From: Planctomycetaceae bacterium
GTDB taxonomy: Bacteria; Planctomycetota; Phycisphaerae; SM23-33
Assembly (NCBI GenBank): GCA_039680605.1
Contig: JBDKTA010000070.1
Location: 1-55,695, forward strand
DNA: 55,695 nucleotides
Reading direction: 5' to 3'
Shown here: positions 4,611-44,806 of the stretch, piece by piece
Numbering within the stretch: position 1 is the stretch's first letter
How the letters are laid out: the number at the start of each line of letters is the position of its first letter
The notes under the pieces: generated by a model
The model's database searches: none
The model's input: the letters and a program-made list of their open reading frames with translations, nothing else
Told to the model about the DNA's origin: nothing
Made by a program: the position numbers and the translations under genes

Positions 4611-4669
4611 CACTCATAATCATCATTAACCAGGCGAGAGAGATGACCACAACACAGCCGATCCGATAT

Positions 4670-4698
4670 TTGACAACGTGCGCGAGGTATGCTAGAAT
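4670..4698 (+). promoter_or_regulatory. Own promoter of HNH gene 1
   Basis: TTGACA (4670-4675), a 17-base spacer and TAGAAT (4693-4698). The core GATATTTGACAACG (4665-4678) is identical over 14 bases to that of the HNH promoter at 39588 and shares GATATTTGAC with the one at 16817-16845. A transcript would start near 4705, at the first base of the leader stem. Confidence 0.82.
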
Positions 4699-4703
4699 GT
4701 ACC

Positions 4704-4809
4704 TGTCAGGGGCGAGCGGTTGTTTCTTTTCCAACAGAATACAATGGGCATCAGCCCCGTACCGAATGGCCGCCGCTCCTGACAAGCGAAGGTTTCTCGG
4801 TGCGGGGCT
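4704..4809 (+). ncRNA. Pseudoknotted 5' leader RNA of HNH gene 1
   Basis: Arm A (4704-4719) pairs with A' (4770-4784) over 15 bp, with one wobble and one bulged A. Arm B (4753-4763) pairs with B' (4799-4809) over 11 bp with one wobble. The order A-B-A'-B' is an H-type pseudoknot. It starts at the predicted transcription start and ends 10 bases before the GGAGGG ribosome site. The HNH2 leader (16657-16810) has the same topology. A control of HNH translation or a catalytic or mobility RNA are the options. Confidence 0.6.
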
Positions 4810-4831
4810 TGCTATTTCTGGAGGGTGGACG

Positions 4832-5095
4832 TTGGCGCACAAACAGACACGCAACGCAAAAAGTCAGGAGTTGGCACGCAAGCGAATTATAAAGGCGCGA
4901 GGCGAGAGCTGTGAAGATTGCGGCAGAGATGGCCCCATTGAACTACACCATAAGCAACGAGCAGTCGATGGTGGCACCTTTGCCGATGATAACCTTATTC
5001 TATTGTGCTCCTCTTGCCACTTGAAGGCGCATGGACAACAACGACATAGGCGATGGTACGACGACGATCCACGCCTAGCAAGGATGTTAGGCTAA
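4832..5095 (+). CDS. HNH homing endonuclease 1 (free-standing)
   Basis: The 87-residue protein is little more than an HNH nuclease: CEDCG, IELHHKQRAVDGG, NLILLCSSCHLKAH give the two Cys pairs that bind structural zinc plus the catalytic His-Asn-His set. TTG 4832 is preferred because GGAGGG (4820-4825) is six bases upstream and because transcription starts near 4705. The frame is open back to an ATG at 4643, but that stretch encodes the promoter and structured leader. It sits between the ASCH and replication genes with its own promoter, as a mobile endonuclease would. Confidence 0.8.
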   Translation: MAHKQTRNAKSQELARKRIIKARGESCEDCGRDGPIELHHKQRAVDGGTFADDNLILLCSSCHLKAHGQQRHRRWYDDDPRLARMLG

Positions 5096-5096
5096 C

Positions 5097-5852
5097 ATGA
5101 GAACCTGGATCAAACTTTACACCGAGATCCTACGAGACCCAAAGATGGGCAGGCTGACCGATCGGCAAGGATGGACATTCACCCGCTTGCTATTGCTTGC
5201 CGGGACCGTTGATGGTGGCACACTTGGCAGCCTTGAAGATATTGCTTGGAGCCTCCGCATACAGCCCGTCGATCTTTCCGACGATCTCGCCGTTTTGTCA
5301 GAGTTGGGCATGGTGGAACAAAGCCAAATCGGAGATTGGACCGTTGTGAACTTTGAGAAACGACAAGCCCGGCCACCCAGCGCAGAGCCCGAAGCTGTTA
5401 CCGAGCGAGTGAAACGGCACCGGGAGAACATGAAACGAGAATGTAACGAGGATGTAACGACCCTGCAACGAGGCGTAACGCCCTCAGATCCAGAAGCAGA
5501 TCAGATCCAGAGCAGAAGCAGACAAGATACAGAGGCAGAAGCAGACACAGATCAAGCGCCGACCAAAAGCCAGAATCTGCCTGCTGATGCTGCCCTTCGG
5601 GCATTGCTTGCCTTGCCTGACATGGATGAGGCCGTCGCCCAAGAGCTGCTAGAACAGCACGAGCCCGGGTACTGCCTGGCCTGGGCGCAATATGCCGCGA
5701 GCCAGGGCAAGCTGGAAAACCCGGCCGGGTACTGCGTCAAGGGCATCCGATCCAAGCGTGAGCCGCCGGCGCCCCGCCAGAAATCGCCGCCGAAAAACAA
5801 ATGGCTGGCACAGATCACGACCGGCCAGTATGCCGACATAATCAGGCATTGA
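5097..5852 (+). CDS. Replisome-organizer-like protein (DnaD-type N-terminal domain)
   Basis: The 251-residue protein starts with RTWIKLYTEILRDPKMGRLTDRQGWTFTRLL, then a winged-helix segment (LGSLEDIAWSLRI), as in phage replisome organizers that bind the origin and recruit helicase loaders. The middle (about 100-160) is charged and repetitive, and the C-terminal region has an NPAGYCVKGIR motif seen in primosomal proteins. No helicase or polymerase is encoded nearby, so host enzymes are presumably recruited. Confidence 0.7.
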   Translation: MRTWIKLYTEILRDPKMGRLTDRQGWTFTRLLLLAGTVDGGTLGSLEDIAWSLRIQPVDLSDDLAVLSELGMVEQSQIGDWTVVNFEKRQARPPSAEPEAVTERVKRHRENMKRECNEDVTTLQRGVTPSDPEADQIQSRSRQDTEAEADTDQAPTKSQNLPADAALRALLALPDMDEAVAQELLEQHEPGYCLAWAQYAASQGKLENPAGYCVKGIRSKREPPAPRQKSPPKNKWLAQITTGQYADIIRH

Positions 5853-7965: not shown

Positions 7966-8105
7966 ACACACTACAGATTTGCGGGCTGGCTGTCTCAGTG
8001 GCGATCTTTGCCGCAATCGGCCTCGCGTTTATCTTTGGCTCTTGCCGGTTGTCGGGCGATGCCGATGATGAGGCGGATCGGCAGTTGGAGGAGATGCGGA
8101 AATGA
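7962..8105 (+). CDS. Small single-span membrane protein (GTG start)
   Basis: The 47-residue product begins VNTLQICGLAVSVAIFAAIG, one transmembrane segment ending in FGSC, with an acidic cytoplasmic-type tail (DADDEADRQLEEM). GTG 7962 is chosen because GGAGGGGGA (7950-7958) precedes it and because it overlaps the stop of the frameshifted upstream gene. The frame is open back to 7836. Confidence 0.55.
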   Translation: MNTLQICGLAVSVAIFAAIGLAFIFGSCRLSGDADDEADRQLEEMRK

Positions 8106-8323
8106 GCGACGCAATCACCACGACAGCAACCAGGGAGTTAGAAAACCTATGCCCGTCATGCCTGCATTTTCGCGGCGGGATAGTTTGCGCCGCAAATTGC
8201 CTGATAGTCTATGCCGGCGAAGTGGTAAAAAGGTGCGGGTGGTATCAGCGGGCGGTGTTCACCTGTCCAAAGTGCGGGACGCCGATACAGTTGAAGCTAG
8301 ACATGAAAGGCGGGCAGGAATGA
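8102..8323 (+). CDS. Zinc-ribbon mini-protein with two Cys clusters
   Basis: 73 residues with CPSCLHF (near 17), CAANC (near 29) and CPKCG (near 55). These could build one or two zinc sites. ATGA overlaps at both ends. No function assigned. Confidence 0.55.
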   Translation: MSDAITTTATRELENLCPSCLHFRGGIVCAANCLIVYAGEVVKRCGWYQRAVFTCPKCGTPIQLKLDMKGGQE

Positions 8324-8865
8324 TGATACCGACTAATGAGCAAGGGGTTGTTGCGCTATTCTCAGAATATGCGGGCGAGCTTGGCTACATCTTCAAGCGT
8401 ATCCAGGCCGGATGCCCGGATGCCATAATGGAAAAGGACGGAAGCGAAGTCAGGATCGAGTTTGAGTTCAACGCCTTAAACTTCAAGAAACACGGTCACG
8501 ATCAGGCAAAAGTTGACATGATCGTCTGCTGGAACGATGACTGGCCAGGTAGTCCGATCCCGGTCTTGTCTTTACAGATGTACCTTACCCTTTATCGGGG
8601 CAGGGCGCCAAAAGAACCGGCCTGGCTGCGGTTTCTGAATTGGCTACAACTGGTCAAGACTGCAAGGATGGCAAACCTCGTTGCCCTGCAACTTGCTTGT
8701 CCTGTTTGCAGTACCGCTATGGCACCACGGACAAAATACGCTGACTGGACATGGGAACACGCAAACGGCGACATACTCCGCAACGGCATCATTTTCCGCA
8801 CTTGCCCCAAGTGCGGATATACCGAATCCGAGGCGACATTCAGGGAGGATTTAGGCGATGACTAA
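8320..8865 (+). CDS. Putative restriction-like (PD-(D/E)XK) nuclease with zinc ribbon
   Basis: The 181-residue protein has FKRIQAGCPDAIMEKDGSEVRIEFEFNALNFKKHGHD, with D, E x E spaced as in PD-(D/E)XK sites, followed by VDMIVCWNDDWP. The C-terminal part (CPVCS, CPKCGY, about 126-165) is a zinc ribbon. A DNA-end processing or homing-type role is possible. The start overlaps the upstream stop; ATG 8323 is an alternative. Confidence 0.55.
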   Translation: MMIPTNEQGVVALFSEYAGELGYIFKRIQAGCPDAIMEKDGSEVRIEFEFNALNFKKHGHDQAKVDMIVCWNDDWPGSPIPVLSLQMYLTLYRGRAPKEPAWLRFLNWLQLVKTARMANLVALQLACPVCSTAMAPRTKYADWTWEHANGDILRNGIIFRTCPKCGYTESEATFREDLGDD

Positions 8866-14486: not shown

Positions 14487-14969
14487 GTGAGCGACAATTA
14501 CACCGATGAGATGAAGCAATCAACTGGCATCCTATGGGGTGGGCACGTTGCAGAAATCCCCTTACCGCATATTCGTAAGTGGCCCGGTCATAGTACTAAG
14601 CGCCCGGTCAGTGTAGCTATCCAGGTCTATGCAGTCGGAATCCATTACTCTGCTGATGTAAAGGAAGAGGATAATCCAGTCTGGAACCCTCTAACCCAAG
14701 CTCAAGCAAACCCAACCTGGAAGGAAATCCAGGGACCGGAATCAGAGTACGGCAAGCAGATAGTTGGTTGGCAGTCATCCTGGGATGATGTAGAGGGGAA
14801 GGGCAAGCAGTTCTTCTCTGACCGTTGCCTGAGTCGGCATTGGGTTATCAGGTGGCTTGAGGAAATACTGGCAAAGCACTTCAGCCCAGAAACCCATGAG
14901 ATCCATGGGTGGAGTAGCAATTTGCTGAAAGAAATCCGTTGGGGCGGATATTTGAAGGAAGGTGACTAA
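14487..14969 (+). CDS. Hypothetical protein, last rightward gene (GTG start)
   Basis: 160 residues with many Trp and His (KQFFSDRCLSRHWVIRWLEEILAKHF). GAGAGGAG (14473-14480) fits GTG 14487. It lies between two terminators with no clear promoter of its own, so it depends on read-through. No family recognised. Confidence 0.6.
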   Translation: MSDNYTDEMKQSTGILWGGHVAEIPLPHIRKWPGHSTKRPVSVAIQVYAVGIHYSADVKEEDNPVWNPLTQAQANPTWKEIQGPESEYGKQIVGWQSSWDDVEGKGKQFFSDRCLSRHWVIRWLEEILAKHFSPETHEIHGWSSNLLKEIRWGGYLKEGD

Positions 14970-15042
14970 GTGCCGGGTTGGGTGCCCTGCTCTTACCATG
15001 TGTGCAGAATGTGACAATTCCTTGATGGTTTTGTACAACTGC

Positions 15043-15085
15043 TAAGAAAAAGAGACAGCCCCCTGGTAACGAATCGCCAGGGGGC
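15043..15085 (-). terminator. Terminator at the end of the late operon
   Basis: Read leftward, GCCCCCTGG (15085-15077) pairs with CCAGGGGGC (15066-15058), followed by TGTCTCTTTTTCTT. A second perfect hairpin of 10 bp (15110-15119 with 15124-15133) lies upstream and could act in either direction. The stretch 14970-15214 holds only these structures, where the two arms of the genome converge. Confidence 0.75.
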
Positions 15086-15109
15086 AAAACCCTTATATTC
15101 CATGCAAGG

Positions 15110-15133
15110 AAACTACCCTCTGTAGGGTAGTTT
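15110..15133. terminator. Hairpin between converging operons
   Basis: AAACTACCCT (15110-15119), loop CTGT, AGGGTAGTTT (15124-15133): a perfect 10-bp stem flanked by A- and T-rich ends on both strands, so it can terminate transcripts from either side. Confidence 0.65.
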
Positions 15134-15214
15134 CTCGACACAGAATGTAATGCACAAGTCGCCGGTTTCAGTCCCGGCGACTCGCGATCTCCTCCCACTC
15201 GTGGCGGGTGAGGC

Positions 15215-15958
15215 TCACGGTACGCGGATTACCCACATCCGCCGTCCGCCGATCTCTTGCTGATAGACGACCGCCCCGGTCGAATATCCCCGATCGGCGT
15301 CAACGGCTTTCCCGTCCACCGTCCACACGGAGTTTAGATGTTGGTGGTCGGTGCCGCCCAGCATCCCCAGGCCCGACAAGCACGACGGCCCGCCTGCGAC
15401 AAACATGAGGTGAGGCCCGCCCGCAGGTGGGAAGTAGTACGACCCCGGCCCCAGCCCGAACCCGATGTCGCCGCCGCTGTTCGTCGGCCCGAACACCCCC
15501 CGGTCCACCCCGCACTGTTGCAGCTCCGGAGGCAGAAACGGCGCATCCGGCCAGTACAAGACAACCGTCGCGTTTTCGACCGGTTGCCCGTTTATGTCAA
15601 CGACGTGAGCGACCAACACAGACGGGCCGATAGAACAGCGCAGCTCGAGCAGGTTGCCCTCACTCCACGTCACCGCGCCAAAAGTGGTAGTTAGCCATAA
15701 GGTATTTGTAATCCCGCCGTCGCAGTCGTAGATCGTGACCGGCCCCGGTGTTGGTGTGGGCCCTGGCGTCGGGGTCGGTGGGACGCAGGTGCAAGGGCAG
15801 CCGCGTTCGACGTAGGGCAGGAAAGCGGCGGCGGTTGGGGTCATGGCCAGGCCGGGCAGGTCCGCCGGCGTTGGCAGCAGCAATGGCGAGGTGGTCAGAG
15901 TTGGCACCGTGCAGGCAGCCAGGGCAAACAGGATTAGGATAAACGTAATGGTCCTCAT
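15215..15958 (-). CDS. Secreted lipoprotein with Thr/Pro linker
   Basis: 247 residues: signal peptide (TITFILILFALAAC) with a lipobox LAAC at 12-15, so Cys15 should be lipidated. A linker (about 60-75) of PTPTPGPTPTPGP type follows, then a beta-rich domain with several Cys. Such linkers are common in Chloroflexota surface proteins. As the last late gene it may act on the host surface, for example in superinfection exclusion or lysis, or belong to the tail tip. Function not known. Confidence 0.7.
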   Translation of the reverse strand: MRTITFILILFALAACTVPTLTTSPLLLPTPADLPGLAMTPTAAAFLPYVERGCPCTCVPPTPTPGPTPTPGPVTIYDCDGGITNTLWLTTTFGAVTWSEGNLLELRCSIGPSVLVAHVVDINGQPVENATVVLYWPDAPFLPPELQQCGVDRGVFGPTNSGGDIGFGLGPGSYYFPPAGGPHLMFVAGGPSCLSGLGMLGGTDHQHLNSVWTVDGKAVDADRGYSTGAVVYQQEIGGRRMWVIRVP

Positions 15959-15986
15959 TCTCTATGATCCCCTTATCAGAAGCGGC

Positions 15987-16115
15987 TTAGATTGCCCCTG
16001 GCGGGTCTGGTATGCCCAGGGTTGCATACCTGTAAACGTGCGGAGGCAGCTTGGACAGGTCGCACCCCTCGCGGCGTTGCAAATCCAAGACATTGCCAAT
16101 CAAATATGCTTCCAT
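15987..16115 (-). pseudogene. Stranded original C-terminus of the lysozyme gene
   Basis: The segment 15987-16100 encodes 37 residues plus stop that align without gaps to the last 37 residues of the lysozyme (20 of 37 identical: LD.Q, GCDL, LP, GIP.PP.A). It lies directly after the HNH gene, whose stop codon ends at 16100. The lysozyme with its own C-terminus lies on the other side of the HNH unit. This is therefore the displaced 3' end of the interrupted gene. An in-frame ATG exists at 16115, so a 42-residue peptide could be made. Confidence 0.78.
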
Positions 16116-16651
16116 GCCCTGCGGTTGATTATGCGATTTATATGCCCGGTACTAACTCCGAACATGGCTGATAGTGCAGCCTGGACTATCCCTTTTGCAG
16201 ACAATTCTCTAATCTCTCTCACTTTACGTTCTGTCAATTTTGCTTCGGCATGATCCTCCCCGCATATAGGGCGTGAGTGCACTCTTCTAACTCCCAGGAC
16301 CCTAGAAGAATGTATCAGATTTTCTGACCGAGTGACATATTCAAGATTTTCAATCTGGTTGTCGCGTTTATTTCCATTCTTATGGTTAACCTCTTTTCCC
16401 GCCGGGCAAGGTCCAACAAACACAGACAGCACAAGGCGGTGAACAAGAAATACGGTCTGGTCCCCGGCCATGTATAGATGGACTTGAAGATAGCCGTCTC
16501 TCGTATTACCATAACGCAAAATCTGGCCCTTGTGTTTCCTTGTTTTTCCACCGTGTTCGATAACTGTGAAATCTACACTTCTCACCCGGCCCGCATTAGA
16601 AACCTGATAGTGGTCGCCAAATCCCGGTATGCTTTTCCATATTTCGTCCAT
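16100..16651 (-). CDS. NUMOD4-HNH homing endonuclease 2
   Basis: 183 residues: an N-terminal NUMOD4 DNA-contact motif (DEIWKSIPGFGDHYQVSNAGRVRS), an HNH core (LVHRLVLSVFV, KEVNHKNGNKRDNQIENLEYVTRSEN) and a C-terminal helix-turn-helix (IVQAALSAMFGVSTGHINRIINR). This is the layout of free-standing phage homing endonucleases. ATG 16651 is chosen because GGAGGG (16666-16661) precedes it and the protein family starts here. The frame is open to 16852 through the leader. It has its own promoter and sits between two copies of the lysozyme C-terminus. Confidence 0.88.
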   Translation of the reverse strand: MDEIWKSIPGFGDHYQVSNAGRVRSVDFTVIEHGGKTRKHKGQILRYGNTRDGYLQVHLYMAGDQTVFLVHRLVLSVFVGPCPAGKEVNHKNGNKRDNQIENLEYVTRSENLIHSSRVLGVRRVHSRPICGEDHAEAKLTERKVREIRELSAKGIVQAALSAMFGVSTGHINRIINRRAWKHI

Positions 16652-16656
16652 AGCAA

Positions 16657-16810
16657 AGCGCCCTCCACAAGATTTGCCACCGTTGCTTGGACGAATGGCG
16701 GGACGTTTGTCCTCTTGCGAAGGGCGCTCTGCCCACAACTGATATTCAGTTATGAATGATCTCGATGGCTCTTTAGATGCAAAGCGCCCCGTTAATCCAT
16801 TCGTCCAAGC
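16657..16810 (-). ncRNA. Pseudoknotted 5' leader RNA of HNH gene 2
   Basis: In the leftward transcript arm A (16810-16797) pairs perfectly with A' (16698-16685), 14 bp. Arm B (AGCGCCCT, 16728-16721) pairs with B' (AGGGCGCT, 16664-16657), which overlaps the GGAGGG ribosome site. The order A-B-A'-B' is a pseudoknot, as in the HNH1 leader. B can instead pair with GGGGCGCT (16788-16781), giving a possible on/off switch for translation. The A arm starts at the predicted transcription start. Confidence 0.6.
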
Positions 16811-16816
16811 ATTCAT

Positions 16817-16850
16817 AGTATAAACCATCTTGTGGGCAACGTCAAATATC
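16817..16850 (-). promoter_or_regulatory. Own promoter of HNH gene 2
   Basis: TTGACG (16845-16840), 17-base spacer, TATACT (16822-16817) on the minus strand. The extended core GATATTTGAC (16850-16841) matches the promoters of HNH1 and HNH4. The TGA stop of the lysozyme gene lies within this core. Confidence 0.8.
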
Positions 16851-17229
16851 AATTCGCATTAGGCGGCTCTGGTATTCCTATCACGACATACCAATAGATA
16901 CGATCTGGCAACATCCTTAGATCGCAACCGTATTCACGCTGAAAATCAAGCAGCCATCCGATCCCTGCGTTATAGGCCGCCAATCCCCAAGCGGTGGACG
17001 GCTCGCACATCTGCCGGCCCTTGAGGTTTTCCAGGTAGCCCATAGCGCAGGCCGCCGAATCCTTCCACTTGAGCGGGTCGCCCTCGCAGCCCCGGCCCTC
17101 CCACACGGACGGGTGGATCTGAAAAGGCCCAAGCTCACCCCGTGCCCCAACGCCGCAAACCATATCCGGGCCGCACTCCTGAACGGACCAGGATTCCAGA
17201 AACGAGAGCGCCAGCAGCACAGCGGTCAT
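16849..17229 (-). CDS. Lysozyme/SLT-type transglycosylase with replaced C-terminus
   Basis: 126 residues with the lysozyme-like set: a Glu after the first helix (FLESW, residue 11-12) and GELGPFQIHPSVW (about 31-43), then AAYNAG (about 83-88), the usual last motif of soluble lytic transglycosylases. It should cut peptidoglycan. Lying among tail genes, it may be a tail-tip enzyme or the endolysin. Its last 37 codons are probably supplied by the adjacent HNH unit (see 15987-16115). Start by ATGA overlap. Confidence 0.75.
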   Translation of the reverse strand: MTAVLLALSFLESWSVQECGPDMVCGVGARGELGPFQIHPSVWEGRGCEGDPLKWKDSAACAMGYLENLKGRQMCEPSTAWGLAAYNAGIGWLLDFQREYGCDLRMLPDRIYWYVVIGIPEPPNAN

Positions 17230-17993
17230 GCGCCTAGCCACGCATCGTCGTTGTCGATGTCCACCCAGTCTACAATGTGATTCCAGCCGTTGCCATCGTC
17301 TATCGTGTTGTCAAATACCAGGCCGCAGCGCCTCGGCGCAAAGCCGCCGCCCGACAGCGTGGCGGCCTGCTTGGTCATTGTCCCGGTGATGCCAAACGGT
17401 GTATGCAGGTAGCTGTCAACGTCCCAGCTTATGAACGGAGCGCCTACGAGGTGCATGTGCAGTACCATTGCCGTGGGTATGGTCATGGCGTCGCCGTCGT
17501 TGACCACGACCACGCCGCCGCCGGTCCTATGCCGCCGCCGGACGATCCATTGTGTCGGGCTGGCTTGCGATACGCACAAGACCAACTCGACATAGTTGTT
17601 GTCTGTGGCGTCGTCAATCCGCAAGCCGCAATAAACGTCAACAGCATTGGCATACAACGCCACAGACGCCAGCTTGCAGCCGGCCGGAACGGTGCCGATG
17701 TTGTAGTACAAAAACGACCGTTGGCCCGCGGATGTCCTGACCTTGAGCAGCGAATCTTCCAACGTCACCGCGGCCGCGGCGGCGAATGGCGCGCCGGCCC
17801 ACGTCCAGTAATCGGTGAGCGTCGCGGCGGCATAGCGGAAATGGTCGGTGATACTGTGCCGGCCGCCATAGTGCAAGCAGGTGAGCTGATCCCAGTAATC
17901 GAGCGCGCTGGTACAGCGCATCCCATGTTTTTGCAGCATGACCGCCACGTCGCGGGCATCTCTTGTCGCGTTGCGCTTGCCGAGTTGTCTCAT
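17226..17993 (-). CDS. Putative tail-tip protein with beta-sandwich domain
   Basis: 255 residues. The N-terminal 35 residues (DARDVAVMLQKHG) are helical. The rest is beta-rich with GTVPAGCKLASVALYANAVDVYCGLRIDDATDNNYVEL, like a carbohydrate-binding jelly roll or receptor-binding domain. ATGA overlaps with both neighbours. Likely part of the distal tail; receptor unknown. Confidence 0.55.
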   Translation of the reverse strand: MRQLGKRNATRDARDVAVMLQKHGMRCTSALDYWDQLTCLHYGGRHSITDHFRYAAATLTDYWTWAGAPFAAAAAVTLEDSLLKVRTSAGQRSFLYYNIGTVPAGCKLASVALYANAVDVYCGLRIDDATDNNYVELVLCVSQASPTQWIVRRRHRTGGGVVVVNDGDAMTIPTAMVLHMHLVGAPFISWDVDSYLHTPFGITGTMTKQAATLSGGGFAPRRCGLVFDNTIDDGNGWNHIVDWVDIDNDDAWLGA

Positions 17994-29314: not shown

Positions 29315-30049
29315 CTAAACGTCCGACCATCCAGCCGGCCCGCCTACTATCATCTGCCCGCCCCAGGTCGGCTCACCGGCCCCTTTGAACGTGCCATCAT
29401 TGCCCCCCGCCGATTCGTCGTCCAGGGCAACCCCCGCGCCGCCCTCGGTGCGGCCATTCCAACAGGCAACCGTCCAGGTGGCGGCGCTCAGTGGTTTGTG
29501 AAACGTGCCGGCGGCGTACAGGGCCGCCACGTTGATGATGCCCGGCGCTATCCCTATCGCCGCCAGTTGCCCATTCCAGCAGTACGCGTCGCTGTTGCCA
29601 CGCCCGATTTGGTTATAGACTAGATTGCCGACGGCAACACCAAGCGGAGCCGCCGTCACGTCTACTCCGTTTCTAAACACTGTCATCGTCGCCGGACCAA
29701 CCGGACAGACGGCGGCAAGGTGAGTCCAGGTCAGCGCCGCGCTGGCATTCGATTGAGCAGCACCGCCGAACGCATTGTAAATCAGGTTGCCGGCAGACAT
29801 CGCCAGTATAGGTCCGGCCGCTCCGTTTTTCCCAATCACCACGTCCCAGTTCCAGGCAGCGGTCCGTTTTGTCCAGGCCACGATGGTAAACGGCGGCGCG
29901 ATGGTGATACCGGCCAGCGAGATATAGTCATTTGCGCCGTCGAATGTCAGGTAGTAGCAGGGAAGAACAGGCGCCGCCCCGCCATACGCCCCGCTGATTT
30001 CCAGGTCAGAGCCGAACACGAGCGGCTGAGTGTGGCGCAAGATGATCAT
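29315..30049 (-). CDS. LamG/concanavalin-like adhesin
   Basis: 244 residues. The core (YLTFDGANDYISLAGITIAPPFTIVAWTKR ... WTHLAAVC ... MTVFRNGVDVTAAP ... NQIGRG ... FWNGQLAAIGI-like) is a laminin-G/concanavalin fold that binds glycans. It begins in ATGA overlap with the glycosyltransferase at 30046, tying a sugar-binding virion protein to the glycan block. Likely a decoration or receptor-binding protein. Confidence 0.75.
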   Translation of the reverse strand: MIILRHTQPLVFGSDLEISGAYGGAAPVLPCYYLTFDGANDYISLAGITIAPPFTIVAWTKRTAAWNWDVVIGKNGAAGPILAMSAGNLIYNAFGGAAQSNASAALTWTHLAAVCPVGPATMTVFRNGVDVTAAPLGVAVGNLVYNQIGRGNSDAYCWNGQLAAIGIAPGIINVAALYAAGTFHKPLSAATWTVACWNGRTEGGAGVALDDESAGGNDGTFKGAGEPTWGGQMIVGGPAGWSDV

Positions 30050-30681
30050 GCCCCATGCTCCCGGCACACAAACCACGGATGCGACCGACGCCGCCAGCCC
30101 ATGCCGCCGTTAATCGGGTTGACGCGCACCTTGTCGCCCATGAGCCAGCGCACATAATCGAAGCTCAGTTGGTCCCTGGCGCTGCCCTTGACGATCTCCG
30201 CCCACCATAGCGCCATGAACTCACGGACGGCGGGCGTGTCCCGTTTCGCCATGATGCACGTTTCGCCTAGCCCGAAATGGGCCGGGAATCCATCGGCCCT
30301 GTACCGCTCCATCTGCGCGTCTACGACCTCCGCCGCATCCTTGCCCTTCTTGACCACCCGCCGCGCCTCGCCATAGATGCAGTCGCCCGCCGGGTGTTTG
30401 AACAGCGCCAGATCGTAGCCGTCGAGCCACGCGCCAAGCACCTCCGCCACCGGAACAGCAAGCGCGATGTTACCGTCGATCCACAACGACTCCGCCGCCG
30501 GGAATGACAGCAGCTTGAACTGCCGTGCCGTGCGCCGCCGGTCTGTCTGCGGTATGGATGTCCATACCTCCCAGCCCTCGCACATCTGCCCGCCGGTGTA
30601 GGCGACGAACCGGCCCGGTACGGTCGGTGTTTGCAGTTTGTCGTAGCCGCCAAAGATAGCGGTGTAGGCTGCTTGATCCAT
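30046..30681 (-). CDS. Glycosyltransferase (DUF616/TOD1-like, GT-A)
   Basis: 211 residues: IFGGYDKLQTP at the start and RQFKLLSFPAAESLWIDGNIAL (DxN/DxD-like metal motif near residue 71) match DUF616 proteins, which resemble GT-A transferases; HFGLGETCIMAKRDT and FMALWWAEI follow as in that family. ATG 30681 is used; GTG 30687 is possible. The TACAAT box lies only 7 bases ahead, so the transcript may be nearly leaderless. Confidence 0.7.
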   Translation of the reverse strand: MDQAAYTAIFGGYDKLQTPTVPGRFVAYTGGQMCEGWEVWTSIPQTDRRRTARQFKLLSFPAAESLWIDGNIALAVPVAEVLGAWLDGYDLALFKHPAGDCIYGEARRVVKKGKDAAEVVDAQMERYRADGFPAHFGLGETCIMAKRDTPAVREFMALWWAEIVKGSARDQLSFDYVRWLMGDKVRVNPINGGMGWRRRSHPWFVCREHGA

Positions 30682-30687
30682 GCTCAC

Positions 30688-30722
30688 ATTGTACCTTGTC
30701 TAGCGGTTGCCCCTTTGCCGTT
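30688..30722 (-). promoter_or_regulatory. Late repeat-type promoter, copy 1
   Basis: Minus-strand AACGGCAAAGGGGCAACCGC (30722-30703), 9 bases, then TACAAT (30693-30688). The 20-mer is identical in three places (also 47218-47252 and 54662-54696), with the same 9-base spacing to a TATAAT-like box. No normal -35 is present. It lies between the sulfotransferase and glycosyltransferase genes. Confidence 0.7.
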
Positions 30723-30723
30723 G

Positions 30724-31407
30724 TCAGCCATTGTGATTCATGTCGCACCGGCAGAATTGGACGGCCCGGTCGATCTGCTTGTCGCTGGCAGGCATGACCG
30801 CCGTGCCGTCGCGTGCAAAAGCGTTCAGCGCCCGCACCCAGGCCATCGGCTCTTTCAGCAGCGGCCGGTAGCTGACCTCCAATGTCGGACCGTCAAATAC
30901 CGCGATCTGCCGCTCCATCGCCTCGCGCCAGGTGGACAAGATCGCCCGCGCGTGCGGTGGGTCCATGCGCAACGCGCCTCCGTAACTGACGATGCTGTGC
31001 TTGACCAGGCTGGCCACCGACGCCTCGAAATCGCGCCGGACGATGACCAGCCGGGCGTCCTTGAGGTAGGGCGTGATCCAATGCAGCGTGAAGCATAGCC
31101 GCGGGCACTTCATCCCCCACAACGGCTTGCGCTGGCATTCGTCGGCAAGCTCTTTGTAGGCCAGGCGTTGCTCACCGCCGATGTCGTTGGGCTGGCTCGT
31201 GCCGTAACGGATGCCGGTGATGCGCTTATGCAGCGCCTGCCAGCGGAGATCCTCAAAGTATCCGAGCTTGTTGTTGGCGTCCGACGGCTGAAGGTGCCCA
31301 TCGCCCATGTCGACGCCCAGGGTGTGCAGGATGCCGGCGACAAGCGACGTACCCGAGCGCGGGATGCCCAAGACGACAACGCAGCGACTAGGCAAGGAAT
31401 CCTCCAT
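30724..31407 (-). CDS. Sulfotransferase-family protein
   Basis: 227 residues with the PAPS 5'-phosphosulfate loop GIPRSGTSLVAGIL (14-27) and a later ARLVIVRRDFEASVASLVKH (about 124-143), the 3'-phosphate region of sulfotransferases. They move sulfate from PAPS to sugars or proteins. GGAGG lies 8 bases before ATG 31407. In the glycan block it would sulfate the sugar. Confidence 0.8.
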   Translation of the reverse strand: MEDSLPSRCVVVLGIPRSGTSLVAGILHTLGVDMGDGHLQPSDANNKLGYFEDLRWQALHKRITGIRYGTSQPNDIGGEQRLAYKELADECQRKPLWGMKCPRLCFTLHWITPYLKDARLVIVRRDFEASVASLVKHSIVSYGGALRMDPPHARAILSTWREAMERQIAVFDGPTLEVSYRPLLKEPMAWVRALNAFARDGTAVMPASDKQIDRAVQFCRCDMNHNG

Positions 31408-31594
31408 GCTCTTTACCTCCAACGGTCAGAATCAGCCCGGCCAATCGCCATGATACCCACGCGCTGACCAACCGCCCGTTGTACTGGCGCAACACGTGAT
31501 AGTGTGAGCGCCACACCTTCGGGAAGTTGCGACACCGCCTTAGAAACGAGGCCCGATGAAGGCCGACCGTTATGGTACAAGGCGCGCTAGGCAT
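31388..31594 (-). CDS. Hypothetical small basic protein
   Basis: 68 residues, basic, with HRASFLRRCRNFPKVWRSHYHVLRQYNGRLVSAWVSWRLAGLIL. It overlaps the aminotransferase end by 8 bases and the sulfotransferase start by 20. The C-terminal half is hydrophobic. No family recognised. Confidence 0.45.
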   Translation of the reverse strand: MPSAPCTITVGLHRASFLRRCRNFPKVWRSHYHVLRQYNGRLVSAWVSWRLAGLILTVGGKEHGGFLA

Positions 31595-32699
31595 AGAACC
31601 CCCTAATCGTCGTGGTGATCTTGTCAACCTCCTCGCCCGTCAGGTTTTGGTGTAGCGGGATGCACAGGGTGTGCTCGTTGGCCCACTCCGCCTCACTCAA
31701 GCTATTGCCGGTGTTGTAGGCCAGGTGAAGCGGCAGGTAGCGGAATGTGACGTAGATGCCATTCTCGATCATGTGGTGGGCCAATTCGTCGCGGCGGTCG
31801 GTTTGCACCCAGTACAGGTAGTAGCTTGACGTGCAGCCCGGCAGCGGCTCGGGCGGCAAGGTCAAATCACCGACGCCGTACAGCATGGCCTGGTAGGTGT
31901 CCCATATCTCGCCCCGCGCGGCGACGAACGCCGGCACCTTGCGCAGTTGCTCCCGGCCTATGGCGGCCAGGATGTCATTCGACCCGCACCGGCTTGACGG
32001 CTCGGACACGGTGAACTCCCACCACCGGCTGGCCTTGCCCACCTTGTCTGAGCCATAGTTGCTGTCTAGGCCCAGGTTGCGCAGCCGCTTGCCCCGCTCA
32101 TAGTCTGCGTCGCTCCGCAGCCACAGCGCCCCGCCATCGCCCATGACCAGGATTTTCATGCTGTCAAATGACCACGCGCCGGCTTGCCCGAACGTGCCGA
32201 CGGCTTGCCCGTGGTAGGTCGAGGCGACGGCGCAAGCGGCATCCTCCAAGAGCCACAGGCCATGCTCCCGGCATAGCTCCACGATCGGGTCCATGTCGCA
32301 CGGATGGCCGCCATAATGCAGCAGCGATACCCCCACCGTCCGCGAGGTGATGTGCTTCTCGATCTCATCGGCGGTGACGTTCAGGGTGTGGCGATCTACG
32401 TCGCAGAATACGCACTGGCCGCCCTGTTCCATGACCGCGTTTGCCGATGCCACAAAGCTGACCGACGGCATGATCACCTGTTGCCCCGGCTGTAGCCCCA
32501 GGATGCGCGGCGCGAGGTACAGCCCCGACGTGCAACAGTTCAAGAGCAGCACATTCTTGACGCCCCACGTTTCGGCAAGCTCTTTTTCCAGCCGTTCACA
32601 CTGCTTGCCGGTGCCAAGCCAGCGCGAGGCAAAGACGCGAGCGACTGCTTCCCACTCCGATTCGCCCATCGTGTTGCTGAAAATCTCGATCCTGCTCAT
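31587..32699 (-). CDS. DegT/DnrJ/EryC1-type sugar aminotransferase
   Basis: 370 residues. PLP enzyme of the sugar aminotransferase family: Lys182 in SFDSMKILVMGDGG forms the internal aldimine, and LLEDAACA (150-157) holds the PLP Asp. Enzymes of this family aminate NDP-keto-sugars at C3 or C4, as in perosamine or Fuc3N synthesis. No dehydratase or isomerase is encoded here, so the keto sugar would come from the host. ATGA overlap with the upstream gene. Length is normal. Confidence 0.9.
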   Translation of the reverse strand: MSRIEIFSNTMGESEWEAVARVFASRWLGTGKQCERLEKELAETWGVKNVLLLNCCTSGLYLAPRILGLQPGQQVIMPSVSFVASANAVMEQGGQCVFCDVDRHTLNVTADEIEKHITSRTVGVSLLHYGGHPCDMDPIVELCREHGLWLLEDAACAVASTYHGQAVGTFGQAGAWSFDSMKILVMGDGGALWLRSDADYERGKRLRNLGLDSNYGSDKVGKASRWWEFTVSEPSSRCGSNDILAAIGREQLRKVPAFVAARGEIWDTYQAMLYGVGDLTLPPEPLPGCTSSYYLYWVQTDRRDELAHHMIENGIYVTFRYLPLHLAYNTGNSLSEAEWANEHTLCIPLHQNLTGEEVDKITTTIRGFYA

Positions 32700-33313
32700 C
32701 CTTTCCCCCATTTCTGCTTGAACCGTGCCCGGTCCTTGTCGTACCACTCGCCCCACGTCTGGCCCATGGCGTGGTTAATCCACACATCCTGGACATACAC
32801 CGACCGCCAGCCCTTTTCACGCATCCTCATTTCCAGATCGGTATCGTCGCAGTAGTGCTGATAGCCTTCGTCCATGAATCCAACGGCCCGGAACACGTCC
32901 GTCTTGACCGCTGCCACGACCCAGGCCGCCGGGTGTTGCAGCTCGATCACGGCTTGCGGCAGCCCCGGCTTGCCCTTGCCCTGCGGCGTGCTATGGCACG
33001 GCGCGCCCGTCACAGCAACCCCGATTTCCGGCCTGCTGTCAAGCACGTCCACCAGCCGCTTGCACCAGCCGTCCGGGAACTGCGAGCAGTCGTCGTTGAC
33101 GAACACGGCGACGCGAGCGCCCCAATCCATCGCGGCGCGCCATAGCACATTCGACACAACCAGGCCGCCGCGCCGGGCATAGTCTGAAATCAGCAGCGCG
33201 CCCACGTCCAGCCCGGCGGTGTCTTTCGCTTCAGCCAACGTCTGCGCGCCGCGCAATATGTCAAGCGTTGGGCAGACAAGCACGATCTCGGACGTGCGCG
33301 GTTCTATCCCCAT
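32696..33313 (-). CDS. Family 2-like glycosyltransferase
   Basis: 205 residues: EIVLVCPTLDI at the start, VAVFVNDDCSQFPDGW (metal-binding D-D, about 71-86), PAAWVVAAVKTDVFRAVGFMDEGYQHYCDDTDLEMRMREKGW (about 127-170). The last segment is the typical GT2 acceptor/ED motif. It is shorter than usual (about 250-300). Starts 9 bases inside the methyltransferase gene. Confidence 0.85.
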   Translation of the reverse strand: MGIEPRTSEIVLVCPTLDILRGAQTLAEAKDTAGLDVGALLISDYARRGGLVVSNVLWRAAMDWGARVAVFVNDDCSQFPDGWCKRLVDVLDSRPEIGVAVTGAPCHSTPQGKGKPGLPQAVIELQHPAAWVVAAVKTDVFRAVGFMDEGYQHYCDDTDLEMRMREKGWRSVYVQDVWINHAMGQTWGEWYDKDRARFKQKWGKG

Positions 33314-33918
33314 GTCACCACCACCAACCGCGACTTGTCGCCTTCGCCCGGTCCCGGGTCTTGCACGTAGTTGGTCACGGCAAGCTCTTGGAATTGCCAC
33401 GGTGTCACGGTCAGCACCGAGCGCAGGCTGTAGTTTGCCAGCCACGCCGTTACCCTGTCTGGCAGGCTCTCTTCGCCATTATGCAGCCCGGCGTCTTTCC
33501 AGCCCCGGTAGGTGTTGAGCATCATGGTCACGGCGAGGCAATCGGGCGGCGGGCTGTCAACCAGCGCCTGCAATGCCACGCGGTACAATTCGACGCCGGT
33601 TGCTTTCGCCTCTGCTTGGCCGGGAATGTCCAGGCTCAGATCGACGCCATAGCAGGGCACGTCCAGCGCATCCTTGAGCGCCTTGAGCACCAGCGCGTCA
33701 CCGCAGCAAATGTCCAGTACGTTGACCGGCTTGACCTCTCGCAGCGCCTTGATGATCCGCGCCGGCCTTGACGCCGGGTTGCTGACATCGCGGTCGCCGG
33801 CCCCCACCCGCTCGCGGATGCGGCCCTGGATATTCAGCAGCGGCGTGCTGGGCCATAGCAGCAGATCGGCGTCTAGTTCTGCCGTCTTGCGCTCCAAGTC
33901 CTCAAGCCAGTGTTTCAT
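33304..33918 (-). CDS. SAM-dependent methyltransferase
   Basis: 204 residues with the class I motif VNVLDICCGDALVLKAL (about 65-81) and CYGVDLSLDI (motif II). Later motifs (CLAVTMMLNTYRGW) fit a small-molecule methyltransferase. ATGA overlap with the asparagine-synthetase-like gene. Substrate presumed a sugar, from the context. Confidence 0.7.
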   Translation of the reverse strand: MKHWLEDLERKTAELDADLLLWPSTPLLNIQGRIRERVGAGDRDVSNPASRPARIIKALREVKPVNVLDICCGDALVLKALKDALDVPCYGVDLSLDIPGQAEAKATGVELYRVALQALVDSPPPDCLAVTMMLNTYRGWKDAGLHNGEESLPDRVTAWLANYSLRSVLTVTPWQFQELAVTNYVQDPGPGEGDKSRLVVVTWG

Positions 33919-35084
33919 TTGAGCGTGTACCCATCCTTTCGCAAGGCTTCGCAGTAACAGGCCGCCGTCCAGTGTGACCACCACTCCGACCGCTCAAGGT
34001 GCCCCGCGCCGCTTGACCACATGGCCTTCGTCGCCGGCACAGCTTCGGGCGCGCAGTTCTGGCCGTACCATGATTCGTGGTACTGGCACAGCATCCGGGT
34101 CACGATCTCGGGCGGGAACAGCGGCCATTCGTCGGCAAGCCGCGGGAACGCCGCCAGCATCGGATCAAGCCAGGCGCACATCCGCTGCCGCAGGTCAAAC
34201 GCCTCCCTGACCGACGATTCGACCGCGACGCGCAGCACGTCGTAACTCAGCCAGGGCAACACCTCACCGGGCAGGCTTGGCGGGATGCTGGTTGCCACGC
34301 CATAATGCTTGACGGCCCACCTGTGCAGCCGGTTCTTGCCCGCGCCCATAAGCCAGTAGTCAGATCCAAACCCGCTCACCGCTTGCAGATCGGGCAGGCT
34401 CATTTCCGCGCCGCTGCCAATGAGCGACGATGAGCCATAGCCGCTGATGGACTGCCAGCGGTCGCGGTTCTTGGGCAGACATAGCGCCTTTTGGAAAGCG
34501 TGTAGCAGCCAGAAGCGCGATACTGGAATGGTCGGGTGCGCGCCGTTCAGGTATTGGCCGCAGCCGATGTCCAGAATGGGCCAGAGCCACAGCGCCGGGT
34601 CTTTGACGGTCACGATCTGCTCTTCGGCCCAGCCCTCGAATAGCATAATCTGACGGGCGATCTGCGCTTCCGGCCCAAACGAAAAGCAGACGACCGGATC
34701 GGTATAATGCTGGCGGTCTATCACCCGCTTGAGCGCCATGCCCATGATGCGACTGTCCCAGCCGGACGAATGCAGCAGAACATGCACCTTGCCGGGCAGC
34801 CACGACTCTTCCAGGTGGTAGCAAATGGCGTCAAACAGGCGGCCAAAGAACTGTGCTTCTGTCTCTTGCCGGGTCGCCGGCGGCAGGGCAAACAGCGCCA
34901 ATTCATCGGTGTTGGCCCGGTATGGCGCGATGCCCACGTCGATAAAGACGGTGTTTGGCCCTTCGCTGTAAACCGGCTGGACAAAGTTCTTGCGCACCCT
35001 CGCGGTCTTGGGCAGCACGTCGCGGATTAGGTGCGATTGCTTGCCGCCACACTCAAAGACACGGCCCCGGTTGAATTGTCTCAT
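33915..35084 (-). CDS. Asparagine-synthetase-like PP-loop protein
   Basis: 389 residues. VHVLLHSSGWDSRIMGMAL (about 101-119) resembles the PP-loop SGGxDS of asparagine synthetase and related amidotransferases; the second Gly is replaced by Trp. VCFSFGPEAQIARQI and ISGYGSSSLIG fit the later nucleotide and substrate regions of that fold. No N-terminal glutaminase Cys is present. In glycan clusters such proteins amidate uronic acids. ATGA overlap places ATG at 35084. Confidence 0.65.
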   Translation of the reverse strand: MRQFNRGRVFECGGKQSHLIRDVLPKTARVRKNFVQPVYSEGPNTVFIDVGIAPYRANTDELALFALPPATRQETEAQFFGRLFDAICYHLEESWLPGKVHVLLHSSGWDSRIMGMALKRVIDRQHYTDPVVCFSFGPEAQIARQIMLFEGWAEEQIVTVKDPALWLWPILDIGCGQYLNGAHPTIPVSRFWLLHAFQKALCLPKNRDRWQSISGYGSSSLIGSGAEMSLPDLQAVSGFGSDYWLMGAGKNRLHRWAVKHYGVATSIPPSLPGEVLPWLSYDVLRVAVESSVREAFDLRQRMCAWLDPMLAAFPRLADEWPLFPPEIVTRMLCQYHESWYGQNCAPEAVPATKAMWSSGAGHLERSEWWSHWTAACYCEALRKDGYTLK

Positions 35085-36070
35085 GTGTACGCCCATTGCT
35101 CACCAACCTTCCTTCTCAGGTGCGGAAAACAATCGCACAGTATCCCACGCAATTCCCACGACCGCCGCTCCCAGGTGTGGCAGGCGAGGGTGTAGGCTTT
35201 GGCATTGGCCGCTATCGGCTCCCAAAAGCCATGCCCGATCAAGTCGTCAAGCGCGATCTCTACGCCCTCCATCTCTTTGTCGCTGAAAGGCCCTCGCGGC
35301 TTGCCGTCCAAGACATAACTGTCTGCCGGCTTGTCGAATGTCAGGTAATGGACGCCGGGCATCCAACACTCGCCGATAACCGGCGGCATGGGGTTAGACA
35401 GGAACGCCGCGCCCGCCGCCGCACAGTCGAATATCCGCGCCGGTCGCGTGTTGGCCGTGCGGTTCAGGTGAACGACAACCTTTGTCCTTGCCAACAGGCT
35501 GGCGTATTCCTGATTCACGCTTTGCCCGCCGGTGTGCCAGTACACCCAGCCGCGCTTTTTGCAGTAGCCCTCAAGCCACGCGCTGAAAGCGGGCCGGGCC
35601 GGTGAGTGCTGCCACACACAGTAGAACCCCACGTCAATGTCACGTCTCAGCCCCCGATCCCGGTAGTACCGCTCGTTGACGGCGTAGGGGAGCTGCCTTA
35701 CCTGGAAATCGGAGCTGTACCAGTTCTCAGGCTTGTCATGGTCTAACAGCACGAGATCGGCCAGCCGTTCAGCAATGCGCCGCTTCGTTTCGTGGATCGA
35801 CTCGCCCAACGTAGGCCACAGCACGCGGTAGACGACCGGGCTGATCCGGTTGCCCTTGTGCGGCTCGATTGACGGTGCGGAATATTTGCCGTCGTCAAGC
35901 CAGATCGCGTCTACGTCTTTCCAGGCTTTCACGTCCAGGCAAAAGTCACGCTCTACGTCGTGATGCTCCCAGGTCAGGCCCGGCACGTCGTAGGCGAAAT
36001 GACCGTCGATGCGCGGCGCCTGGTTGTACCAATGGCCCCGGTGCAGTAGGGCGAGGTGTAGGGGGATCAT
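35081..36070 (-). CDS. GT-B-type glycosyltransferase (CgeB-like)
   Basis: 329 residues. The C-terminal half (YASLLARTKVVVHLNRTANTRPARIFDCAAAGAAFLSNPMP ... GVHYLTFDKPADS) is the NDP-sugar domain of family-1/CgeB-like transferases. The N-terminal half has WEHHDVERDFCLD and VDAIWLDDGKY. Starts 1 base before the stop of the membrane peptide at 36072. Transfers a sugar to an unknown acceptor. Confidence 0.75.
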   Translation of the reverse strand: MIPLHLALLHRGHWYNQAPRIDGHFAYDVPGLTWEHHDVERDFCLDVKAWKDVDAIWLDDGKYSAPSIEPHKGNRISPVVYRVLWPTLGESIHETKRRIAERLADLVLLDHDKPENWYSSDFQVRQLPYAVNERYYRDRGLRRDIDVGFYCVWQHSPARPAFSAWLEGYCKKRGWVYWHTGGQSVNQEYASLLARTKVVVHLNRTANTRPARIFDCAAAGAAFLSNPMPPVIGECWMPGVHYLTFDKPADSYVLDGKPRGPFSDKEMEGVEIALDDLIGHGFWEPIAANAKAYTLACHTWERRSWELRGILCDCFPHLRRKVGEQWAYT

Positions 36071-36071
36071 A

Positions 36072-36209
36072 CTAAAACGCCCACCACGGCAACCCAGCCC
36101 GATACAGCAACCAACGGGCGCCAATGCCGACCGCGATGCCAAGCGCGATGATAAGCAGGCATATGACAAAGACGACCGGTTTACTCTGTCTCTCTATCCA
36201 GTTAAACAT
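36072..36209 (-). CDS. Small single-span membrane protein
   Basis: 45 residues: NWIERQSK then a hydrophobic helix (VVFVICLLIIALGIAVGIGA, about 12-31) and RWLLYRAGLPWWAF. It overlaps the upstream gene by 16 bases and the next start by none. It could anchor glycan enzymes to the membrane. Confidence 0.6.
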   Translation of the reverse strand: MFNWIERQSKPVVFVICLLIIALGIAVGIGARWLLYRAGLPWWAF

Positions 36210-36979
36210 CCCACCATCTCCAATTCTGCCAGCACTTGCCGGCTCACAAATCCGCTCGTGTCCAGGTCAAACGGCAGCGGGCGGTCACTCCGGTGCTTGC
36301 GGCTGTACTTGTCGGTGAAGTACTTTTTCCAGTCAGACCAGACGAACTCTGCCCGCCGCTTGGGCACGAGGTCATGGTAGCAGCGGATAAAATTCATGCG
36401 CCTGGCGTAATCTGACAGCGGCAATTCCAGCGGCAAGTCGATCACGGCTACACTGTCCATCTCGGGCCAATGCCCGGCGATCCACGGCGTCGGCTTGCCG
36501 TCGTAGGTGATGCCGTCCAGGCCGAATTGTACGTCAGAATCAGCCCGCAGGATGTAGGGCCACATCTTGTCGGCGTGAAACACCACGCCGCTTAGACTAT
36601 CGCAGCGGTGGACATAGCCCAGGCCGTCGACCGGCTGGCGCAGGTAGGCCGCCGCGTCGGGCGTGACGTAGCAGTTGCAGAACATAAAGACGATTTGATC
36701 CGCGCCGCCATGCCGGGCCTCGTGCCAGCCGACATCGGTACTCGTGGCGACCATCTGTGGTACGTAGTAGGATTGGCCGCCAATCTCCGGAAACCACGTC
36801 CGGCGGTCGCTGATAAGGTGCGCATTGTCGGGCAGCCAATCGAACCACCCAGCGTCCTTGCGCGTGGTCAGCGGCAGGTACACGGCGTCAAACTCAGCAC
36901 AGATGCGCTCAAGGCACAGGCGCAGGGTGGCGCGGTAGCCGTCCACGAAACCGACCGGCACAACGGCGGCGGTTATCAT
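36194..36979 (-). CDS. Putative glycosyltransferase-like protein
   Basis: 261 residues. The start (TAAVVPVGFVDGYRATLRLCLERICAEFD) and DQIVFMFCNCYVTPDAAAYL recall GT-A folds, and RADSDVQFGLDG supplies acidic residues, but no clear DxD is present. Surrounded by glycan genes. Could also be a hydrolase. Starts at ATGA overlap. Confidence 0.5.
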   Translation of the reverse strand: MITAAVVPVGFVDGYRATLRLCLERICAEFDAVYLPLTTRKDAGWFDWLPDNAHLISDRRTWFPEIGGQSYYVPQMVATSTDVGWHEARHGGADQIVFMFCNCYVTPDAAAYLRQPVDGLGYVHRCDSLSGVVFHADKMWPYILRADSDVQFGLDGITYDGKPTPWIAGHWPEMDSVAVIDLPLELPLSDYARRMNFIRCYHDLVPKRRAEFVWSDWKKYFTDKYSRKHRSDRPLPFDLDTSGFVSRQVLAELEMVGCLTG

Positions 36980-37191
36980 CCTTGGGCCTCTTTACTGAGC
37001 ACCCTCATTTCTTCAATGACGGCCTCTAGATCGTCGATGGTAAATTCACCGTCCAGAACGGCAATTCCTCCTGGCTGAAATCCGAAATAATCTATATTCG
37101 GCCTTTTGGCCTGGAGGCGCTGAATAGCCGCCGCCTCGATTCTGTCCCAGTCTTTAGTCTCTTGCGAGCGCAGATCAAGGACCTCCATCAT
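36976..37191 (-). CDS. Small protein between acyltransferase and glycosyltransferase genes
   Basis: 71 residues, helical and acidic (DWDRIEAAAIQRLQAKRP ... TIDDLEAVIEEMRVLSKEAQG). ATGA overlaps at both ends show it is translated with its neighbours. No function recognised. Confidence 0.55.
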   Translation of the reverse strand: MMEVLDLRSQETKDWDRIEAAAIQRLQAKRPNIDYFGFQPGGIAVLDGEFTIDDLEAVIEEMRVLSKEAQG

Positions 37192-39542: not shown

Positions 39543-39587
39543 TCTGTCAACCTCCTATTTCTTGCGCTGTCATAGGACAGCAGATAT

Positions 39588-39616
39588 TTGACAACGCGCC
39601 AATCCTATGATAGCAT
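39588..39616 (+). promoter_or_regulatory. Own promoter of HNH gene 4
   Basis: TTGACA (39588-39593), 17-base spacer, TAGCAT (39611-39616). The GATATTTGACAACG core (39583-39596) is identical to that of HNH1. It lies on the strand opposite to the late operon. Confidence 0.8.
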
Positions 39617-39648
39617 GTAACCCTACCAACAACTGGAGGCGCGTAACG

Positions 39649-42339: not shown

Positions 42340-42349
42340 CTCTCCCCTT

Positions 42350-43283: not shown

Positions 43284-43294
43284 GATGGCCCTTT

Positions 43295-43630: not shown

Positions 43631-43641
43631 CGCTTTCCTTT

Positions 43642-44283: not shown

Positions 44284-44300
44284 GGTTGCTCCTTTCATGT

Positions 44301-44335: not shown

Positions 44336-44362
44336 ATTGCCAACGCGATCCGCGCTTTGGCC

Positions 44363-44797: not shown

Positions 44798-44806
44798 GTT
44801 ATCCTC

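Follow-up and report, generated by a model that had tools for sequence, protein, structure and literature searches.

The HNH2 locus and its leader

The window, by which we mean the whole analysed stretch of 55,695 nucleotides, contains two HNH genes, HNH1 and HNH2. It derives from a phage that has genes for capsid, portal and tape measure, and its minus strand at 30000-43000 carries many glycosyltransferase-, sulfotransferase-, methyltransferase- and aminotransferase-like genes. By its Pfam domains, NUMOD4 (9e-14) and HNH_3 (9e-17), both past the Pfam cut-offs, HNH2 is a homing-type endonuclease, homing activity itself being predicted. The gene and its neighbours are arranged as follows:

16849..17241, minus strand: upstream gene, 130 aa, ending just ahead of the HNH2 promoter; its own 3′ end is the second version of the copy behind HNH2
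16100..16651, minus strand: HNH2 gene, 183 aa, with NUMOD4, HNH_3 and a weak HTH (Pfam, run on the longer open frame 16100-16852)
15990..16101, minus strand: duplicate 3′ end of the upstream gene, behind HNH2, ending in GNVLDLQRREGCDLSKLPPHVYRYATLGIPDPPGAI and a stop (DNA and protein match)

Thus, within 15990-17241, HNH2 parts two 3′-end versions of one gene. Its last 30-odd codons recur, in a second version, immediately behind HNH2, with 59% DNA identity over 86 bases and a protein match as well. The 130-aa product of the upstream gene contains AAYNAGIG and is transglycosylase-like by eye, without a Pfam match. From this arrangement HNH2 looks like an insertion close to the 3′ end of the upstream gene, the alternative end having been either brought by the newcomer or kept by the recipient. 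Searches for relatives of the upstream gene in IMG/VR, named phages and the other 297 class genomes searched returned none, and no uninterrupted version was found.

The leader of HNH2 comprises the following parts, in the order of transcription:

16840..16845, minus strand: -35 box TTGACG (promoter search)
16827..16836, minus strand: strand X, CCCACAAGAT, located between the two promoter boxes; in read-through transcripts alone it can pair with B′ (5′ part); HNH2 only
16817..16822, minus strand: -10 box TATACT
16797..16811, minus strand: A, 5′ strand of stem S1, beginning at the predicted transcription start; 9 of 15 pairs changed on both sides among seven members
16779..16789, minus strand: P2 strand, GGGCGCUUUGC, a copy of the S2 3′ strand and alternative partner of B
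16763..16769, minus strand: C, 5′ strand of helix S3 (GCCAUCG)
16734..16754, minus strand: P4 hairpin adjoining B; 86% of cells paired, two pairs with double changes
16713..16733, minus strand: B, 5′ strand of S2, which pairs with P2 too (duplex score and alignment)
16701..16712, minus strand: P3 hairpin GGAC-AAAC-GUCC, paired in 7/7 members and nearly invariant
16684..16698, minus strand: A′, 3′ strand of S1 (perfect stem with A; alignment)
16676..16682, minus strand: C′, 3′ strand of S3 (CGGUGGC), with A′ as alternative partner (hairpin P5)
16652..16672, minus strand: B′, 3′ strand of S2, holding the ribosome site (duplex score and alignment)
16661..16666, minus strand: ribosome site GGAGGG (sequence)

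The promoter TTGACG-17-TATACT (16845..16817) is the sole sigma-70-like site in 14900-17400, where 1.7 are expected by chance, so that taken alone it is not significant. With the transcription start set at 7 nt past the -10 box (about 16810), transcription is predicted to begin on the first bases of S1. A TATAAT-like box stands at a like place ahead of S1 in all nine leaders compared (the seven members introduced below, L263 and HNH1), six of which have a recognisable -35 box at exactly 17 nt (by eye). This places the beginning of the fold at the expected start of the RNA.

A reading of the letters alone had proposed a 14-bp stem from the predicted transcription start, a second pairing that crosses it and covers GGAGGG, and an alternative upstream partner for the middle strand. 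All three are real. The stem is perfect and has 15 bp (16797-16811/16684-16698). The crossing helix S2 has 21 consecutive pairs instead of the eight proposed (16713-16733/16652-16672), ends directly ahead of the AUG and holds GGAGGG inside. The upstream partner (16779-16789) is an exact 11-nt copy of 16653-16663, within the 3′ strand of S2.

This fold stands well clear of chance. The leader gives z = -5.8 and its core z = -8.5, unmatched by any of 200 shuffles each; the crossing helix scores -71.9 against a shuffle mean of -28.0 (0/30 shuffles), and the predicted duplex of S2 over GGAGGG has z = -7.95 (0/100 shuffles). In a scan of the 200-mers of the window, the HNH2 leader ranks with the strongest outliers, behind terminator-like hairpins at 15001-15240. 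The latter are the strongest hairpins of the window and probably act as terminators between converging genes. A terminator reading of the HNH2 leader itself was considered and rejected.

An RNA family ahead of different nuclease genes

DNA similarity searches found no relatives. A first pattern for IMG/VR was built from TGGGCA and TTGCTAT, which are similarly placed in the HNH2 and HNH1 leaders; it returned 93 stretches, five of them members by crossing-helix scoring (L200, L136, L122, L144, then L173), and the first four have an anatomy almost identical to that of the HNH2 leader. Other pattern searches gave 6 stretches (five members) and 22 stretches (the five known members and L243). Further patterns yielded 18 stretches in genomes, none a member by structure and context, and 12 more stretches, also without a member. 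The covariance model R1, built from seven members (HNH2, L200, L136, L122, L144, L173 and L243), adds L263 (E 1.5e-8), which shares a record with L136, and the weak L264 (E 0.02) from the L144 record. The model R2, built without HNH2, recovers HNH2 at E 8.7e-30; it includes L263, which is therefore no test of it. The search for homologues suggested by the sequence-only reading thus produced six close relatives, one further and one weak, all in IMG/VR phage records.

Searches elsewhere added no member. R1 matched 2/397 class genomes, namely the window's own and G396 (E 0.007, without the fold), and 1/392 phylum genomes, a set overlapping that of the class, where the match is again the window's own. 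The leaders of HNH2, HNH1, L200 and L144 gave nothing past short chance pieces against named phages, and L136 and the HNH2 region had no match in plasmids. Rfam 15 gave no match above thresholds in the window or the relatives' loci; a permissive Rfam search of 16500-17000 returned a single microRNA match at chance level. Nothing similar was found in Rfam 15 or in the literature searched, a collection thin in subscription papers. We also note a weak RNA relative without a nuclease gene in L268 (G398 40000-51316, complement of 4733-4826), located before a rep-like ORF that has no Pfam match.

The alignment of the seven members (55-82% pairwise identity) covers five helices, S1, S2, S3, P3 and P4. 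Paired cells amount to 93.6%, and 21 of 53 pairs are changed on both sides, in 39 such cells. On the percentage paired, on both counts of double changes and on the covariation score, none of 500 shuffles matches the alignment; for the count of further pair types 19/500 do. Kinship alone can beat shuffles without any structure. Sliding the partners by 1-3 columns lowers pairing to 37-45% and leaves 2-11 double-change pairs; since the structure was drawn from HNH2, it is favoured in this comparison and not in that with shuffles. The helix S3 crosses both S1 and S2 and is present in all seven members. Gaps leave it countable in four alignment rows, so it was tested sequence by sequence, and it proved to be the best C-C′ duplex in 7/7 members (shuffle p 0 to 0.011). 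The hairpin P5 (A′-C′) is weakly supported: 89% of its cells are paired, and its covariation score is matched by 15/500 shuffles.

Substitutions in S2 follow a distinct pattern. Pairs beyond the strand shared with P2 show double changes at 7/9 positions (14 cells), while those inside it show them at 0/11; the P2-B pairing has 96% of its cells paired and zero double changes. Such absence of covariation in the shared strand, together with covariation in the rest of S2, is expected of a real switch because one strand must fit two partners. The missing covariation in P2-B-B′ could also stem from a bound protein or another contact.

HNH2 and six others carry all the marks of the new family: the stem S1 at the transcription start, the crossing S2 and S3, and the P2 copy of B′. 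We regard the existence of a structured, conserved RNA family as near certain. The RNA ahead of HNH2 belongs to a previously unlisted, knotted, switch-like family that precedes unrelated homing nuclease genes in different phages.

The gene behind the RNA varies between members. HNH2 itself encodes NUMOD4/HNH_3, L136 and L200 carry HNH genes (5e-12 and 1e-8, respectively), L122 and L144 a GIY-YIG gene with NUMOD3, and L263 a T5orf172 gene. The L243 protein belongs to no family and is PD-(D/E)XK-like by eye; it has no match in Pfam, PHROG or PDB, and its fold model is uninformative (pLDDT 38). In L173 the RNA is followed by just a 25-aa ORF, and in the weak relative L264 no nuclease gene lies behind. 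The leader is therefore constant and the nuclease variable. Searched alone, the HNH2 protein finds 0 IMG/VR loci; with an alignment of six relatives, 80 of 566 were kept. Relatives of this protein occur in 11/397 class genomes, its own included, and HNH1-like proteins in 2 viral loci and 3 other genomes. A covariance-model scan of 100 loci chosen by relatedness to the HNH2 or HNH1 proteins found none with the RNA, so the RNA does not travel with the HNH family of HNH2. The phages have little in common: window proteins compared with the relatives' loci, as distinct from whole records, have only weak matches in L200, L122, L173 and L243 and none in L136, L144, L263 and L264.

A plus-strand gene of the window (8008-8865) has a PD-(D/E)XK-like motif by eye and a 35% identical relative in L243, which there lies behind the RNA; no such RNA was found ahead of the gene in the window. 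Another HNH relative, L025, is preceded by a very stable hairpin (complement of about 1930-2030, leader z -6.5) that is apparently unrelated and has no Rfam match.

The second HNH gene of the window is a candidate for the same family:

4670..4698, plus strand: HNH1 promoter TTGACA-17-TAGAAT
4704..4809, plus strand: HNH1 leader, with stem 4704-4719/4770-4784 and crossing helix 4753-4765/4797-4809
4832-5095, plus strand: HNH1 gene, just ahead of a replication-initiation-like gene (5097-5852)

The sequence-only reading had assigned the same architecture to both leaders and called their sequences unrelated. The promoter, the stem at the transcription start and a crossing helix of 13 bp (score -52.6, 0/30 shuffles) agree with the first statement in HNH1, but a coding region of the window holds a crossing pair nearly as strong (-51.8), and both covariance models, R1 and R2, miss HNH1. 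As to the second, the two leaders share a promoter decamer, GATATTTGAC, along with TGGGCA and TTGCTAT (by eye), but HNH1 lacks the 11-nt P2 copy and escapes the models. Membership of HNH1 in the family is unproven. About 10 nt separate its crossing helix from the ribosome site downstream, so direct masking cannot be its function there.

A putative translation switch and its alternatives

We lean, by a modest degree and on modelled pairings, towards the HNH2 leader being a conserved, exchangeable expression leader that acts as a two-state translation switch. Free-standing homing-type endonuclease genes of phages would carry this leader, and HNH2 would be read from it; the RNA would begin at S1 and have two states available. 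In the open state S1 would be formed and P2 would occupy B, leaving the ribosome-site strand B′ free. In the closed state B would lie on B′ over 21-22 bp and hide the Shine-Dalgarno as far as the start codon. This could take the form of a local hairpin, with A′ on C′, or of a rod in which S1, S3 and S2 all cross one another. The sequences show the possible pairings and their conservation, the position of the promoter and the variety of nucleases; we infer how translation is affected, the folding order and the signal. P2-B would form first, B′ would invade by way of a toehold left free in the 3′ half of B, and the site would close. Given that P2-B can form ahead of the transcription of B′, and given this toehold, a new transcript may be briefly translatable and then closed, or may be held in one state until a phage-timed factor intervenes. 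Read-through transcripts of HNH2 would also be kept closed by strand X, which lies upstream of the start site.

Nested-folding programs, which cannot score the crossing state, were applied to own-promoter transcripts containing both P2 and B. They place B on B′ and close the site in 6/7 members (mean unpaired 0.00-0.25). The exception is HNH2, for which P2-B is predicted and the site is mostly open (0.68) from its own promoter, as against 0.22 in read-through via X. Masking of the ribosome site at z < -2 is slightly commoner in HNH leaders than in control genes: 7 of 78 leaders, including those of HNH1 and HNH2, versus 0 of 71 (of 79 leaders, one was too short and was left out). In L263 and HNH1 the crossing helix stops short of the ribosome site; masking is therefore not a feature of all leaders and cannot be the whole explanation. 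In L263 the distance is considerable and the P2 copy is absent (by eye). By the precedent of phage T4, the arrangement suggests that the ribosome site is hidden so as to time nuclease synthesis. Judged from the modelled pairings, the leader RNA probably decides whether the nuclease is made.

An alternative that we hold to be unlikely, though it has real points in its favour, is that the RNA, structured and transcribed from a promoter of its own, acts independently (as a stable small RNA, a ribozyme or a protein-binding RNA), and that the nuclease genes are passengers taking their ribosome site from its 3′ end. This would account for the differing nuclease families, for L173 and the weak L264 carrying the RNA without an intact nuclease gene behind, for the RNA of L263 ending well ahead of the ribosome site, and for three mutually crossing helices, which exceed the needs of a ribosome-site lock. 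However, in the seven aligned members the last helix, S2, reaches the same TTGCTATG start, the Shine-Dalgarno inside it (GGAGGG or AAGGGG) varies along with its partner, and there is no Rfam match. A little less probable still is a reading in which the RNA is the constant part of a new phage mobile element: knotted and self-switching, with its own promoter and its own activity, it would spread among unrelated phages with any homing endonuclease gene that lands behind it. The activity in that case may lie in ribozyme-like processing, in action in trans, or in an mRNA that times itself and gives one nuclease burst per transcript. We give little credence to a simple lock of the T4 I-TevI/mobE type, where read-through is shut by a hairpin strand upstream of the gene's own promoter and own-promoter transcripts are open. 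X can indeed pair with the ribosome site of HNH2, with the predicted openness differing between the two transcripts as given above, and the HNH relatives L029 and L053 have a promoter within such a hairpin (by eye). But X occurs in HNH2 only, whereas the masking strand B of the other six members lies downstream of the promoter, in both transcripts; P2, S1 and S3 would also be left unexplained.

Two further readings strike us as highly improbable. The leader could operate as DNA, in the form of a folded single strand, a binding site or a recombination site, as its direct and inverted repeats and the sequence ATATTTGA, shared by the promoter and the 3′ end of HNH2, might imply. The G-U pairs of S2 (23/142 cells, one of them fixed in 7/7 members) suit RNA, the minus strand of the leader folds better than the plus strand, and the conserved -10 box sets the fold exactly at the RNA start; on these grounds a DNA-only element was rejected. 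Equally remote is a leader that belongs to the coding sequence, as the N-terminus of a longer nuclease. In the window, both HNH genes have leaders that are open in frame with the nuclease (16100-16852; 4643-5095), and the nuclease frame is stop-free from the RNA start in 7/9 leaders versus 4/18 other-frame counts, with a Fisher p of 0.011 that is optimistic since the members are related and the test is not independent. Against this, the frame relative to the conserved RNA differs between members, no leader peptide is conserved, stops occur in L243 and L263, and the Pfam domains of HNH2 begin downstream of its ATG.

If the expression-leader reading is true, it describes a conserved RNA family tied to homing endonucleases whatever family the nuclease belongs to, in which three helices cross one another and an alternative pairing is built in. 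Such a leader would show how selfish nuclease genes may borrow or swap regulatory RNAs, would serve as a marker for these elements in metagenomes, and could find use as portable on/off control for nucleases whose over-expression must be avoided.

Comparison with known systems

In translational riboswitches and attenuator-type switches, mutually exclusive helices free or hide the ribosome site. The predicted pairings of the HNH2 leader resemble them in that one strand alternates between a freeing and a hiding partner, but no metabolic gene follows and there is no Rfam match. The riboswitch-like control claimed earlier for HNH2 holds as anatomy only: the exclusive pairings are kept in seven relatives with a substitution pattern that fits two partners.

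The HEARO RNA, or IscB omega RNA, which we take to be RF02033, is likewise a structured RNA beside an HNH nuclease gene. It was rejected as an explanation, as the HNH2 family has no Rfam match and its nucleases, assigned by Pfam to NUMOD4/HNH_3, HNH, GIY-YIG and T5orf172, include no IscB-like (RuvC+HNH) gene. Group I introns with homing endonuclease ORFs share with the HNH2 family the combination of structured RNA and interchangeable endonuclease families. They too were rejected: no group I match was found in Rfam, and the HNH2 family has its own promoter and helices of 15 and 21 bp. The out-of-frame HNH insertion element of phage ShiLan is neither an intron nor an intein according to the accessible part of its description (PMC11855218). 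Like HNH2 it is inserted in a phage, contains an HNH gene and has a second frame that is open, but it lies within a gene, and neither a promoter nor a conserved leader RNA is mentioned in that part of the source (PMC11855218).

The closest parallel comes from ribosome-site hairpins in phage homing endonuclease genes, described for T4 I-TevI, I-TevII, I-TevIII and SegB and for Aeh1 MobE in the available portion of PMC2988022. As reported there, I-TevI, segB and mobE hide their ribosome sites, and I-TevI thereby confines translation to late times (PMC2988022). Ribosome-site-hiding hairpins with a promoter-like sequence inside, as in I-TevI, also occur upstream of the HNH genes in L029 and L053, which lack the HNH2 RNA family. 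Both the T4-type hairpins and, by prediction, the HNH2 leader combine a hidden Shine-Dalgarno with a nearby promoter of their own and a nuclease synthesis that is limited or timed (PMC2988022, in the part available). In I-TevI the transcript from its own promoter escapes the masking strand, whereas in the seven members of the HNH2 family the masking strand B lies inside the own-promoter transcript; X of HNH2 is the one strand that fits the T4 scheme. Unlike the T4 hairpins, as far as that portion of PMC2988022 describes them, the HNH2 family is a homologous RNA that several nuclease families have in common, with an anti-masking copy in addition to three helices that cross. By this analogy, the logic of the HNH2-type leader is related to that of the T4 I-TevI/mobE hairpins, yet distinct from it.
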